Source: Falsiroseomonas oleicola (GTDB lineage: Bacteria; Pseudomonadota; Alphaproteobacteria; Acetobacterales; Acetobacteraceae). From it: a stretch of 64,000 nt of DNA. Both the position numbers and the translations under genes were made by a program. Location of the stretch: assembly GCF_019029495.1 (NCBI RefSeq), contig NZ_JAERQM010000001.1:434001-498000 (forward strand). The letters run 5' to 3'. This document shows, in pieces, positions 32,420 through 48,418 of the stretch; position 1 is the stretch's first letter, and each line of letters begins with the position of its first letter. Below the pieces are notes generated by a model. It searched no databases. It worked only from the letters and a program-made list of their open reading frames with translations, and had not been told where the DNA came from.

Positions 32420-33178
32420 ATGGATGCATCGACAGCACCGCTGGCCGGGAAGATCGCGATCGTGACGGGCGCCGCGCGGCGCAATGGCCGTGACACCGCC
32501 TATGCCCTGGCCGGCGCCGGCGCGGCCGTGGTGGTCAATACCCGCGCTTCCCGCGCCGAGGCCGAAGCCGTCGCCGCGGAAATCCGCGCGCGCGGCGGCA
32601 GGGCCATGGCGATGCTGGCCGATGTGACGTCGGAAGCCGAGGTCGCCGGCATGGTGGCGGAGACGGTGGCCGAATTCGGCGGGCTCGACATCCTGGTGAA
32701 CAACGCCGCCGACCGCGCCATCGCGCCCTTCACCGAAATGGAACTGTCGGAGTGGCGGCGCGTGACCGGCATCATCCTGGACGGCGCCTTCCTCTGCGCC
32801 CGCGCGGCGCTGCCGCATATGATCGCGGCCGGCGGCGGGCGGATCATCAACATGGGCGGCGTCACCGGCCATATCGGCGCGCATCAGCGCGCCCATGTCA
32901 GCACCGCCAAGGCCGGGCTGGTCGGGCTGACCAAGGCGCTGGCGGTGGAATTCGGCGGCCACGGCATCACCGTGAACTGCGTCGTCCCCGGCAAGATCGG
33001 CGGCCCGCGCAGCGCGTCCTCGGGCGAGGTGCCCGGCAGCGGCGGTGCCAAGGTGCTGACGGGTGGGGAGGGCGCGACGGAGGAGGTGGCGGCGATGATC
33101 CTGCATCTCTGCCTGCCGGTCAGCCGCTTCATCACCGGGCAGTCCATCCACATCAGCGGCGGTGTCTATCTGCCCTGA
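32420..33178 (+). CDS. SDR-family protein lacking the usual Ser-Tyr catalytic residues
   Basis: 252 residues from the ATG at 32420 (GGGAG upstream). The fold is SDR (VTGAARRNGRDTA, DVTSEAEV, DILVNNAAD, FITGQSIHISGGVYLP). However, the catalytic stretch is INMGGVTGH where INISS is normal, and AHVSTAKAG where YxxxK is normal, so Val stands at the Tyr position. The nucleotide loop has RNG instead of GIG. The protein may use another acid or be a non-catalytic or specialised member. It is divergent from the IclR gene; a repeat element begins six bases after its stop. Confidence 0.85.
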   Translation: MDASTAPLAGKIAIVTGAARRNGRDTAYALAGAGAAVVVNTRASRAEAEAVAAEIRARGGRAMAMLADVTSEAEVAGMVAETVAEFGGLDILVNNAADRAIAPFTEMELSEWRRVTGIILDGAFLCARAALPHMIAAGGGRIINMGGVTGHIGAHQRAHVSTAKAGLVGLTKALAVEFGGHGITVNCVVPGKIGGPRSASSGEVPGSGGAKVLTGGEGATEEVAAMILHLCLPVSRFITGQSIHISGGVYLP

Positions 33179-33183
33179 GTTGA

Positions 33184-33303
33184 AGAGCGCGGCAGGAGCC
33201 GCGGCGGCCATTCGGCCGCTCGGACCGGTCAAGGGGACCGGTCCGCCTACGTCTCAAGAGCGCGGCAGGGGCCGCGGCGGCCGTTCGGCCGCTCGGACCG
33301 ATC
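33184..33303 (-). repeat. Pair of truncated four-hairpin repeat elements (family A)
   Basis: Two 47-base copies, 33184-33230 and 33257-33303, differ at three positions. On the minus strand each carries hairpin H1 (GCGGCC-GAAT/GAAC-GGCCGC) and H2 (GCGGC-4nt-GCCGC). The downstream copy boundary holds H0, a 9-bp stem GGACCGGTC/GACCGGTCC (33222-33230 with 33236-33244). The AGCCAA linker and H3 seen in the other copies are missing. The element begins six bases after the SDR stop codon. Confidence 0.85.
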
Positions 33304-33333: not shown

Positions 33334-33362
33334 TTGCGCACCACAAGACATAAAGATATGTT
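33334..33362 (+). promoter_or_regulatory. Candidate sigma-70 promoter of the metE riboswitch transcript
   Basis: TTGCGC (33334-33339), a 17-base spacer and TATGTT (33357-33362) lie in a short AT-rich patch, and predict transcription from about 33369, right at the riboswitch 5' end. The patch CATAAAGATATG also forms an imperfect inverted repeat and might bind a methionine-pathway repressor; that is speculation. Confidence 0.5.
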
Positions 33363-33365
33363 GAT

Positions 33366-33580
33366 ATGGCGTTGGTCCCGCGCGAGCGGGTGAAAAGGGA
33401 ACGCCGTGCGGGGGCCCAAACCTCTAGTCGGCGGCTGCCCCAGCAACTGTCAGCGGCGAGGTACCGGCCTTCACGCCCCGCCATCCGGCGGAGCAAGCCA
33501 CTGCGGGGGACGACCCCCTCGGGAAGGCCAGGCCGGAACCTGTGACCCGCGAGCCAGGAGACCTGCCAGCGCCGCGGACC
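33366..33580 (+). ncRNA. Cobalamin (AdoCbl) riboswitch upstream of metE
   Basis: Conserved blocks occur in the right order: GTGAAAAGGGAACGCCGTGC, GGCTGCCCCAGCAACTGT, AAGCCACTGCG, CGGGAAGGCCAGG, and the B12 box GAGCCAGGAGACCTGCC (33551-33567). About 80 bases then lead to the metE start, with further GC-rich pairing that could hide the ribosome site (GGAGA). The expected logic is that cobalamin shuts off the B12-independent enzyme MetE when MetH can work. MetH is not in this window. Confidence 0.95.
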
Positions 33581-33648
33581 CGCAGAACCGGGCCGCGCCA
33601 CCTTCCTGCTGCCGGGCTGTGCGGACCGGGGGCCTGGAGACATTTGCG

Positions 33649-40268: not shown

Positions 40269-40424
40269 GTGCACAACTCCTACGACCGCCTTTCGACCCC
40301 GCTCGCCCATGACAGCGGGTCCCTTCCTCCGGCCCAGCCGGACGGCCAGACCTTTCAGACCCCGATGATGTCGAGCCTGACGCGCGACGAAATCCGTCGC
40401 ATCGTCCTTGACCTGATCGGATAA
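40269..40424 (+). CDS. Small 51-residue protein, unknown
   Basis: GTG start at 40269 with AAAGGA a few bases upstream; the frame reads VHNSYDRLSTPLAHD and ends SLTRDEIRRIVLDLIG before TAA. The C-terminal amphipathic helix and Pro-rich middle look protein-like. A longer in-frame ATG at 40119 exists, but its first 50 residues look like translated spacer. No family is recognised. A family A repeat begins ten bases after the stop. Confidence 0.5.
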   Translation: MHNSYDRLSTPLAHDSGSLPPAQPDGQTFQTPMMSSLTRDEIRRIVLDLIG

Positions 40425-40434
40425 TACCAGCGGG

Positions 40435-40528
40435 CCGGTCTCTTGACCGGTCCGAGCGCCCGAATGGGCGCCGCCGCTTATGCGGCGAAGCCAAGGAAAC
40501 CGGAGGTTTCCGCCCGGCGTTTGAGGGT
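40435..40528 (+). repeat. Complete four-hairpin repeat element (family A, reference copy)
   Basis: H0 is CCGGTC-tctt-GACCGG (40435-40450). H1 is GCGCCC-gaat-GGGCGC (40456-40471). H2 is CGCCGC-ttat-GCGGCG (40472-40487). The linker is AGCCAA. H3 is GGAAACC-gga-GGTTTCC (40495-40511), and the tail is GCCCGGCGTTTGAGGGT. The copy at 48326-48418 has the same loops, linker and tail but different, still pairing, H0, H1 and H3 stems. It starts ten bases after the stop of the 51-residue ORF. Confidence 0.85.
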
Positions 40529-40714
40529 AGCCCAGAGCGGTCACGCGATAGGGCCGCTGGTATGAGAGTCCACTGGCGGGCCACTAAGGCACGCCGCATT
40601 TTCCTGGCTCTCCGCTGCGTCCAGCGGAGCTGAAAATGCCTCAGGACGGCGCGGCGCGCGGGCTGCCGGCCATCCGGCCCATCAGGGCCAGACCCGACCC
40701 GCGAGGATCGCCGC
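40529..40714. other. Gene-free stretch
   Basis: 186 bases between the family A repeat and the 71-residue gene. It shows the inverted pair CCGCTGG/CCAGCGG and related short repeats around 40553-40630, but no convincing gene or promoter. Confidence 0.4.
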
Positions 40715-45077: not shown

Positions 45078-46421
45078 ATGCGTGACTCCCGCCATGTTCA
45101 TCCCGGCGCCTGGGCCGTGGCGCTGGCGCTGCATCTCGGCCTCGCCGCGGTGATGATGCGCCCTGCCGCGCCGCCGATGCTGGCGGGCGGTGGCGGCGGC
45201 ATGATGGTCGGAATTTCCGGTGGTCTCGCGGGTGGTGGCGGCGGGCCGATTTCCGCCGCGCAGCCCGATGATTTGGCCGCGACCGAGGCGACGCCGCTGG
45301 AGGCCGCCGCCGCGACTCCCGATGCGCTGGCCGCGCCGCCGCCGCCGGACAGCCAGGCCGTGCCGCCCGCGCCCCTGGCCGCCGCGCCGCCGGATAGGCT
45401 GGCGCCGCCACCGCCGCCCTTGGTCAATGCCGTCCCGCCGCCACCGGTCTCGCCGCCGCCGCCTCAGGCCGCACCGATCCCGCCGCCCCCCGCCCTGACG
45501 CAGCAGCGCCCGCCGGAGCTTCTGGCCGCGGCACCGCCCCCGCCGCGCGCCTTGCCGCGCGCGGCGGCGGATCTGCCGCCGACCGCCGCCGAGCCGCCAC
45601 CCCTGGCCGCGCTGGCCCCGCCCGAGTCCTTGCAGCCGGTGCCGGATGCCACGCTGGCGGCGCCTCCCCCACCGGCTGCCATGACCGCGACTGCGCCGGA
45701 GCCCATCACCGCACCGCCGCCGCCCCCCGTGCAGACCGCGGAGCCGCCGCCGCCGGAGCCCCCGGCGCAGCTCGCCACCCTGCCGCCCCCGCCTCCGCCG
45801 CCCCCGCTTCAGGCCAGCGAGCCGCCGCCGGAGCAGGTGGCCGAGGCGATTCCCATGCCGCCGCCACAGGCACCGCCGCCGCCGGAGCCGGTGCAGGTCG
45901 CGCGTCCGGCGCCCCGCCCGGCGCCACGCCCCGCCGCGCGTCCGGCTCCATCCCCCGCGCCCGCCGCCGCCTCCCGCTCCGCAGCTGTGGCGCAGAGCGG
46001 GCCGGGTCCGGGCGCGGCACAGCCGGGCCCCGGCAGCGGCGCCGGCCCGGCCACAGCCGCCGGCCCGGCCGCGGGCGGCGGTGGCCAGGGCGCGCCCTCG
46101 GCCATGCCGGGCGAGGCCTCCGGCGCGCGGCAATTGCCGCCGGCCTATGCCGCCGCACTGGTCCGCATCCTGCAACGCAACCTGCGCTACCCGCCCAGCG
46201 CGCGGGAACAGGGCATCGTGGGCACGGCGACGCTGCGCTTCGTCATCGCCCGCGATGGCTCGGTGCAGGCGGTGCAGATGGTGCGCGGCACCGGATCGGC
46301 GCTGCTGGACCAGGAAGCGATGGCGCTGCTGCGCCGCGTCTCCCCCCTGCCGCGCCTGCCGGCGGATTTTCCGGATGCCCAGGCCATCGTGCTGGCACCG
46401 ATCGGCTTTTCGATAAGGTAA
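45078..46421 (+). CDS. tonB: Energy transducer TonB with a very long proline-rich linker
   Basis: 447 residues, longer than the common 240-280. An N-terminal helix (GAWAVALALHLGLAAVMM) anchors it. Residues about 80-340 are a Pro/Ala/Glu-rich linker, long enough to span a thick periplasm. The C-terminal TonB domain reads LVRILQRNLRYPPSAREQG, then GTATLRFVIARDGSVQAV and ALLRRVSPLPRLP. The linker DNA is GC-repetitive and open on other frames. No TonB-dependent receptor is in the window. Confidence 0.92.
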   Translation: MRDSRHVHPGAWAVALALHLGLAAVMMRPAAPPMLAGGGGGMMVGISGGLAGGGGGPISAAQPDDLAATEATPLEAAAATPDALAAPPPPDSQAVPPAPLAAAPPDRLAPPPPPLVNAVPPPPVSPPPPQAAPIPPPPALTQQRPPELLAAAPPPPRALPRAAADLPPTAAEPPPLAALAPPESLQPVPDATLAAPPPPAAMTATAPEPITAPPPPPVQTAEPPPPEPPAQLATLPPPPPPPPLQASEPPPEQVAEAIPMPPPQAPPPPEPVQVARPAPRPAPRPAARPAPSPAPAAASRSAAVAQSGPGPGAAQPGPGSGAGPATAAGPAAGGGGQGAPSAMPGEASGARQLPPAYAAALVRILQRNLRYPPSAREQGIVGTATLRFVIARDGSVQAVQMVRGTGSALLDQEAMALLRRVSPLPRLPADFPDAQAIVLAPIGFSIR

Positions 46422-46424
46422 TCT

Positions 46425-46514
46425 GGCCTCAGGCGCCGGCGCGGCCTCCGGCCGCTGGGCTGCGCGACACTTGTCGCGGCGGCCCTTCGGCCGCTCGCCC
46501 GCCTGCGGCGGGCG
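46425..46514 (-). repeat. Complete four-hairpin repeat element (family A) on the minus strand
   Basis: Read on the minus strand, H0 is CGCCCGCC/GGCGGGCG (46514-46496). H1 is GCGGCC-gaag-GGCCGC (46494-46479). H2 is CGCGAC-aagt-GTCGCG (46478-46463). The linker is AGCCCA. H3 is GCGGCC-gga-GGCCGC (46455-46441), and the tail is GCCGGCGCCTGAGGCC. H0 begins ten bases after the aldolase stop codon, the same offset as for the copy at 40435. Confidence 0.82.
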
Positions 46515-46524
46515 CCAAGCGCGC

Positions 46525-47331
46525 TTATGGCAGGCCGGGCGCCTCCCGCCCCGCGCCCGGCCGCCGCGCCATGGCGAAGGCGCTGGCCAGGGCCTCCCGC
46601 AGCACCACCACCTCATGCCCGATGCAGATGCCGCGAAAGCCGGCGGCCAGCGCGGCGGCGGCCTGGGCGCCATCGCCGCCCACCCATCCCAATGGCTTGC
46701 CCGCCGCCTGCGCCGCCTGCCGCAGCGCCTCGGCCGACGCGCGGTAGCGCGGATCGCCGAAGGCACCCGGGATGCCGAGGCTGTCCGACAGGTCGAAATG
46801 GCCGAGCCAGAGCATGTCGAGCCCCGGCACCGCCGCGATCTCCGCCGCCTGCGCCACGCCGGCCGCGCTCTCGACCAAAGCGATGGTCAGCACCGCCTCG
46901 TTCGCCGCCGCCATCTTCGCCGCCGGATCGCCGCCGCCATAGCCGTCATGCGCCAGCGAGAAGGCCAGGCCGCGCCGCCCCTGCGGCCGGTAGCGGCAGG
47001 CGGCCACCAGGTCCCGCGCCTGCGCCGCGCTTTCGACCAGCGGCATCATGATGCCGAGCGCCCCGGCATCCAGCAGCGGCGGCGCCAAAGCGGGCTGCGG
47101 CGCCGGTAAGCGGACCATGGGCACGATGCCGGCGGCGCGGGCATAGGCGCATTGGTCCTTCACCCCCTCGATCCCCAGGCCCGAATGCTCCATGTCCAGC
47201 AGCACGAATTCGGCGCCGGCGGCGGCCAGGGTCGGGGCCAGGCCGGGGGTGAAGAATTCGAAGGCCATGACGCCGAAGGCGGCCTCGCCCTGCAGCAATT
47301 TGCGGCGCACCGGGTTCTGGACGCTGGTCAT
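46525..47331 (-). CDS. HpcH/HpaI-family class II aldolase
   Basis: 268 residues from the ATG at 47331, with GAGGGAGG upstream. This is the 2-keto-3-deoxy-acid aldolase fold: FVLLDMEHSGLG (Asp/Glu metal region), MVRLPAPQPAL, GALGIMMPLVESAAQA with the metal-binding Glu, and LDMLWLGHFDLSDSLG. It cleaves a hydroxy-oxo acid to pyruvate and an aldehyde; the physiological substrate is unknown. It is divergent from an ArsR gene, which may control it. Confidence 0.9.
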   Translation of the reverse strand: MTSVQNPVRRKLLQGEAAFGVMAFEFFTPGLAPTLAAAGAEFVLLDMEHSGLGIEGVKDQCAYARAAGIVPMVRLPAPQPALAPPLLDAGALGIMMPLVESAAQARDLVAACRYRPQGRRGLAFSLAHDGYGGGDPAAKMAAANEAVLTIALVESAAGVAQAAEIAAVPGLDMLWLGHFDLSDSLGIPGAFGDPRYRASAEALRQAAQAAGKPLGWVGGDGAQAAAALAAGFRGICIGHEVVVLREALASAFAMARRPGAGREAPGLP

Positions 47332-48217: not shown

Positions 48218-48247
48218 CGCCTGCGCCTAACTGCGAACTTTCCAACC

Positions 48248-48418
48248 GGCGGCCGAATGGCCGCCGCCAATGCCACGAAGCCAAGCACACGGCGCGCGCG
48301 CCTGGCGTCTGAAGGTTCGACATGCGGCCGGCACTTTCGCCGGCCGAGCGGCCGAACGGCCGCCGCCGCCAATGCGGCGAAGCCAAGCGCGCGGAGCGCG
48401 CGCCCGGCGTCTGAGGGT
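48248..48418 (+). repeat. Tandem pair of four-hairpin repeat elements (family A)
   Basis: Copy a (48248-48317) has H1 GGCGGCC-gaat-GGCCGCC, the AGCCAAG linker and the CTGGCGTCTGAAGGT tail, but H2 and H3 are eroded. Copy b (48326-48418) is complete: H0 GGCCGGC-actttc-GCCGGCC, H1 GCGGCC-gaac-GGCCGC, H2 CGCCGC-caat-GCGGCG, linker AGCCAA, H3 GCGCGC-gga-GCGCGC and tail GCCCGGCGTCTGAGGGT. The pair fills the gap between the SRPBCC and DUF1579 genes. Confidence 0.85.

Follow-up and report, generated by a model that had tools for sequence, protein, structure and literature searches.

The four-hairpin repeat at positions 40435-40528 of the 64,000-nucleotide window (the whole stretch of DNA analysed) is a real dispersed element that occurs across its class and lies outside the named families tested. 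It is read here, with a probability of about 0.65, as a non-autonomous, non-coding element that works like a REP or a MITE, in which a subfamily bearing terminal inverted repeats (TIRs) would have been moved by an IS630-type transposase and the fold would be maintained mainly at the level of DNA. Among the options offered by the initial annotation of this DNA, the TIR-bearing subfamily agrees best with that of a REP/MITE-like element mobilised by a transposase.

Anatomy, copy number and range

All three copies that the initial annotation had placed in the window (40435-40528, 48326-48418 and, on the minus strand, 46425-46514) are present, and its account of the stems, loops and linkers in the shared order H0-H1-H2-AGCC(A/C)A-H3-tail was correct. 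This applies to the H3 stems GGAAACC/GGTTTCC, GCGCGC/GCGCGC and GCGGCC/GGCCGC with a GGA loop, to the H0 stems CCGGTC/GACCGG and GGCCGGC/GCCGGCC, and to the H1 stems GCGCCC/GGGCGC or GCGGCC/GGCCGC with a GAAN loop. The covariance model R1, for which 21 copies including these three served as the training set (alignment A1), matched copy 1 at 40434-40527 on the plus strand (E 3.1e-21), copy 2 at 48327-48417 on the plus strand (E 3.8e-14) and copy 3 at 46426-46513 on the minus strand (E 4.1e-8). Copy 2 consists of the core with no recognised TIRs. The minus-strand gene 46525-47331, convergent with 45078-46421, stops just before copy 3. Two additional window copies lie outside the training set and are independent matches: a shortened copy at 33125-33242 on the minus strand (E 3.8e-9), in which H0 to H2 are retained and the linker and H3 are missing, and a decayed copy at 48232-48315 on the plus strand (E 4.2e-7), immediately upstream of copy 2. 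The four remaining matches listed for the window had E-values of 0.13 or worse. A Cobalamin riboswitch at 33356-33584 adjoins the shortened copy.

Copy 1 is larger than had been annotated. According to sequence and folding, it extends over 40422-40565 on the plus strand, with terminal inverted repeats, an extra hairpin and flanking TNA trinucleotides (TAA on the left and TGA on the right, hence not an identical duplication). The left inverted repeat TACCAGCGG (40425-40433, plus strand) is followed by the hairpins H0 (40434-40451), H1 (40456-40471, GAAT loop) and H2 (40472-40487), all three placed by folding and R1. The conserved linker AAGCCAAG (40488-40495), after which the IS110 insertion point of the Roseicella copies comes, opens H3 with its last G. 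H3 (40495-40511, GGA loop) was placed by folding and is followed by the conserved tail GCCCGGCGnnTGAGGG at 40512-40527. The hairpin H4 (40530-40554), absent from the initial annotation and likewise placed by folding, ends at the right inverted repeat CCGCTGGTA (40554-40562, minus strand); the other parts named lie on the plus strand. At full length, copy 1 folds into a closed multi-hairpin cloverleaf of -85.6 kcal/mol, compared with -59.3 for shuffles (z -6.71), and the cloverleaf is closed by the 9-bp inverted repeats. Copies 2 and 3 reached fold z values of about -2.

The core shared by the copies is built of four hairpins (H0-H1-H2-AGCCAAG-H3-GCCCGGCGnnTGAGGG), and its loops, linker and tail are fixed. 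Among 87 H3 segments parsed by anchors, some of them badly, 45 were distinct, mostly perfect stems around a loop of GGA or GGAT. Another hairpin repeat (GTCRCGCC...) is nested in the H2 loop or follows H3 at L018, L022, L028-L031, L035, L040 and other loci; its pattern GTC[AG]CGCC was found in 21 of 108 copies. At L390:1501-1533 and near position 2000 of L017, mini-palindromes of about 35 bp consist of the two ends alone, and such palindromes sometimes abut a core copy.

As the initial annotation had proposed, the covariance model was run against the genome of origin and against related genomes, and many copies were found in both. The genome of origin yielded 123 R1 matches at E<=0.01; they come from 150 scored of 13602 first-look places, so the total may be low, and the weakest of them may be chance matches, as a spurious antisense match reached E 0.0028 in the scan of the aminotransferase site described below. 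With R1, the element was present in all 14 other genomes of the genus (7-72 matches each), in none of eight genomes of other genera in the family and in three of 16 from outside the family. Two broader surveys used stricter filters, by which weak matches are lost: carriers amounted to 16 out of 288 further genomes in the class, from 11 families, and, in a phylum draw of 398 genomes, to six besides the genome of origin, all six of the same class. Carriers among the matches listed in a pattern scan of named public contigs include Roseomonas, Roseicella, Falsiroseomonas, Neoroseomonas, Roseococcus, Siccirubricoccus, Paracraurococcus, Croceicoccus and Parasphingorhabdus. Read from these named carriers, the element would belong to the Alphaproteobacteria. 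The stretch 40420-40570 had no match in plasmid or phage records, a set from which records near the genome of origin may be absent. In Roseicella frigidaeris, three copies stand in tandem with 129-bp spacing (L176:5046-5390).

Inverted ends, the matching transposon and shared sites

Both inverted ends were recognised in 31 of the 108 copies, several of them doubtful, by a loose regular expression that allowed two substitutions; in the other 77, no pair of ends was recognised. The pattern ATACCARCGG occurs at 53 sites in the genome, compared with 12 for a reversed control pattern, and the flanks of the shell tend toward CTNA/TACC...GGTA/TNAG. In 44 copies scanned, the 3-bp flanks were identical in 11, with 3.5 expected from other copies, and no excess was seen for duplication lengths of 2, 4, 5, 6, 8 and 9. 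A 2-bp duplication, considered as a candidate, occurred in 2 of the 44, within expectation. TNA stood on both flanks of 17 copies and had the same N in 11 of these (permutation p 0.00125). A stop triplet often coincides with the end of the element, on the left in 13 of 31 cases and on the right in 9 of 31.

A transposon with the ends of the shell was found at G000:C2:4432 (L407:1502-2671), one of 13 loci inspected. Its ends TACCAACGGCAT are 1.2 kb apart with TGA on both sides. Pieces of its gene match HTH_29 (7e-17) and DDE_3 (1.9e-6, just under the cut-off, and 3.4e-11), and the transposase gene is spread over several frames, broken by frame changes. The combination of HTH_29 and DDE_3 is taken by us as the mark of IS630, and the broken transposon is likely a relative of the shell's mobiliser. 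With the first ten or so bases in common, an IS630-type transposase may have moved the shell. One TIR-bearing subfamily is a MITE by its inverted ends, its target-site duplication and the related transposon; this applies to the subfamily only, as the other copies show no clear ends. A recurring transposase beside the copies was also considered and rejected: BLAST clustering of 460 predicted proteins from the fetched loci gave only families that looked like housekeeping ones, as judged by eye and with no database naming.

Turnover was followed at sites shared between genomes. At the sites of the copies at 48.2-48.4 kb and 46.4 kb, the flanking genes are present in G001, G002 and G007 and the element is absent, which can mean gain or loss alike, as no clean junction is readable. 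Among 30 element loci of these three relatives, taken from 69 matches, seven match the genome of origin beside the element, at five of its sites; they match on one or both flanks, and matches of 65-86% away from the element or judged paralogous were left out. Opposite orientation of orthologous copies was rejected as an artefact of loci that had not been turned; side by side, they agree. From 11 printed comparisons, seven non-overlapping ortholog pairs were chosen, of which L013/L354 and L239/L357 have one matching flank and L213/L170 equal flanks by reading. Their 182 pair cells comprise 138 unchanged cells, 15 cells with gaps, 17 both-sided changes that are paired and three that are broken, and one-sided changes of which six are paired and three broken. 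The fold has thus been kept in place. The core is older: at shared sites the stems change and the pairing stays.

Of the 15 genomes of the genus, 10 carry the element at the site upstream of a gene resembling that of a D-amino-acid aminotransferase. In G000, G001, G002, G006, G007, G008, G009, G011 and G014, this was read from a through-running match together with the model, the model matches being weak (E 5e-4 to 9e-3) in G006, G008, G009 and G011; in G004, the site is filled by reading alone. Within 170 bases upstream of the start codon, no element is seen in G003, G005, G010, G012 and G013, and in G005 and G010 the flanks are 3-5 kb apart. Retention at this site hints at a host function, which the REP/MITE-like reading leaves unexplained. 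The copies at this site (L212:2025-2118, L359-L367 and L373) have an enlarged H2 in one group, and their tail stands at ribosome-binding distance. The third gene after the site looks like hfq by eye.

The end of one insertion sequence of Roseicella frigidaeris had ten matches, mostly at contig ends (L414-L423). In all ten, it abuts the linker at the same base (AGCCAAG/CAACTG), in copies with differing stems. The insertion sequence was read further in one case (L420:1501-2417) and contains a frame of 295 residues that matches DEDD_Tnp_IS110 and Transposase_20; its 21-residue end peptide alone matched no Pfam family. This IS110-family element is a candidate for a bridge-RNA system that targets a natural repeat.

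Covariation, genomic placement and the level of the fold

The initial annotation had described stems that co-vary around fixed loops and linkers, and this description was borne out, with both sides changed in 21 of 26 pairs and 11-13 of the 26 significant. Within the 21 training copies, both-sided change was seen in 14 of 26 pairs. In 105 distinct copies from the genome of origin, 97.2% of the cells pair and 21 of 26 pairs have changed on both sides, which was matched by none of 500 shuffles; slid controls on the same rows lowered pairing to 34-53%. For the named public contigs, with 110 distinct copies, the values were 95.4% and again 21 of 26. In a phylogeny-aware test, the substitutions of each branch of a FastTree tree were replayed on random columns (40 simulations, scored by a G-test with APC). 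On the two alignments, both fitted to model R1 and thereby biased toward structure, 11 and 13 of the 26 pairs were significant at E<0.05, and not one non-structural pair was significant over 4186 column pairs per alignment.

From such compensation, the initial annotation had also concluded that a folded RNA or single-stranded DNA is under selection. The part concerning the fold stands, as it is conserved by covariation; selection is not secured by compensation alone, because same-branch doubles from one Watson-Crick pair to another exceed one-sided departures from a Watson-Crick pair, and template switching or exchange can contribute to them. In the two alignments, 130 and 150 such doubles were counted per reconstruction versus 90 and 106 one-sided departures (28 and 28 of them to G-T), and the slid control gave 4 and 3 doubles. 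This excess is as expected from template switching, exchange between copies or tree error. That the covariation is largely mutational, with template switching in hairpins or module exchange between copies and with the fold under little if any selection, is accordingly a serious possibility, though we regard it as less than even. Besides these counts, the seven ortholog pairs speak for it (17 compensated doubles versus nine one-sided changes and three broken doubles), as do entire H3 stems that differ at one shared site and the proposal, in PMC8794818, that template switching makes and maintains hairpins. It is weakened by the fact that all one-sided changes (171 and 188 per reconstruction) outnumber all doubles (151 and 174), and errors in a tree of such short repeats raise the count of same-branch doubles. 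Moreover, loops and linker hold their sequence and direction; a pattern search found no inverted TCC loop in H3, though switching can invert loops, and the constant unpaired motifs call for a separate explanation.

Placement and base-pair counts bear on the question of DNA or RNA. Gene context was determined with our own codon-usage gene caller for 108 of the 123 copies, the other 15 not having been fetched: 44 lie between convergent genes, 28 in sense and 28 in antisense between co-directional genes, four between divergent genes, and four overlap a predicted gene. The other intergenic stretches of at least 60 bp in the window were divergent in 10 of 22 cases and convergent in 2 of 22. At least one gene lies upstream of the copy, which is thus downstream of it, in 100 of the 104 non-overlapping copies. 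This placement could also be read as that of a cis-acting structured RNA of transcript ends (a terminator, stabiliser or processing site) whose fold is under selection in the transcripts of the genes beside it. The strong fold of copy 1, the conservation of the unpaired linker and tail, and the aminotransferase-gene site filled in 10 of 15 genomes agree with such an RNA, as do ten copies with a predicted sense start codon 1-9 nt after the TGAGGG tail, as for a ribosome-binding site (an eleventh has it at 24 nt). Over all stem pairs, G-T exceeded A-C by 63:29 in the genome of origin and by 50:24 elsewhere, together 113:53 (p 4e-6, with cells that are non-independent), which speaks for RNA. When three end pairs were dropped, and only then, the two came close to equality, with 29:23 in the genome of origin and 31:20 elsewhere, together 60:43 (p 0.11), versus 7:0 in a small control of 11 tRNAs from the fetched DNA only. 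Sense and antisense placement are equal between co-directional genes (28:28), so that a strand-neutral constraint is favoured and a strand-specific form of the structured 3' UTR RNA suggested by the initial annotation is disfavoured. Between 40000 and 48800, two intrinsic-terminator-like sites were found (2.3 expected), neither of them at a copy. Taken together, a transcript-end RNA appears rather unlikely. The evidence leans, though not decisively, toward a fold that is kept chiefly in DNA, in the form of a hairpin or cruciform, and less in a sense-strand RNA, the base-pair counts being mixed.

According to the preferred reading of a REP/MITE-like element, the four-hairpin core would be common to all copies and, in one subfamily of the genome of origin that includes 40422-40565, enclosed by a shell with 9-bp inverted ends. 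An IS630-type transposase with matching ends would have moved these copies and duplicated a 3-bp TNA target, and copies would have survived mainly behind genes, where disturbance is presumably least. Some would then stay long at one site, their stems changing on both sides with the fold kept, probably for the most part as a DNA hairpin or cruciform, through selection, template switching or exchange between copies. A few may have been reused, with the tail at ribosome-binding distance of downstream start codons or, in Roseicella, with the linker as the landing site of the IS110 element.

A wider proposal is offered tentatively and is, in our view, unlikely as a whole: that the element represents a class-wide multi-hairpin family in which stems are often replaced jointly on both arms at fixed sites and loops, linker and tail stay constant, in which hairpin-templated mutation can be measured, and in which the conserved linker is a site-specific landing pad for an IS110 recombinase. 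If the analysis as a whole is right, covariation, usually taken as proof of RNA function, would be abundant in a strand-neutral repeat, and covariation screens could be misled. Orthologous copies would measure one-step versus two-step compensation directly, the repeat would account for many GC-rich intergenic stretches in genomes of the Roseomonas group, and a natural repeat would be known as the target of an IS110 element.

Comparison with named repeat families

The initial annotation knew no named family with this layout, and this agrees with the searches made here. At gathering score, Rfam matched only tRNA and cobalamin in the window, and on six element loci at E<=1 it gave one weak match, away from the element. 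Titles and abstract beginnings of open-licence PMC texts yielded no description of such an element. A RAYT partner was rejected, as the Y1 transposase PF01797 had no match in the genome of origin; control matches were obtained in 5 of 14 genomes.

That the element is a known alphaproteobacterial repeat (CIR, CGTC-REP or RIME) under another name is very improbable. CIR repeats, as described in PMC2229807, are about 110 bp long, intergenic and alphaproteobacterial, with two arms and a linker, and the element resembles them in its similar length, its intergenic position, its arms joined by a linker and its occurrence in Alphaproteobacteria. It differs from them in hairpin number and in the conserved GANTC that marks CIR, which only one of the 108 cores contains. 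According to PMC3733652, Alphaproteobacteria are the group in which CGTC repeats are most frequent; unlike the CGTC tag at the end of a single 8-9 bp stem, the core is multi-hairpin, and it is also unlike one tagged palindrome of 20-40 bp.

MITEs such as Correia and RUP are listed in PMC2229807. Like these, the element has inverted ends, a short target duplication and ends in common with an insertion sequence of its own genome; unlike these, it duplicates a 3-bp TNA, carries the shell on 31 of 108 copies and has a core that is found across the class. The printed consensuses of Br-REP1 and Br-REP2 from Bradyrhizobium, described in PMC5082802 as multi-palindrome repeats in overlapping 3' UTRs of convergent genes, do not contain the linker or tail motifs of the element by eye, yet the element is likewise multi-palindromic and found behind convergent genes.

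REP/BIME repeats of the GTAG and CGTC superfamilies are palindromic, of high copy number, mostly located between convergent or co-directional genes and sometimes in tandem, as stated in PMC3733652, and the element has all of these features. It differs from the single 20-40 bp palindrome of REP/BIME in having four to six hairpins over 94-140 bp, in carrying no GTAG or CGTC tag at a fixed place of the core (GTAG/CTAC in only 11 of 108 cores) and in a genome with no Y1 (RAYT) transposase. IS621, of the IS110 family, inserts into REP elements as described in PMC11208160, and the linker of the element likewise hosts an IS110-family insertion sequence. The core is thus REP-like in place and use, yet by the marks tested it stands apart from REP with RAYT, CGTC-REP and CIR.
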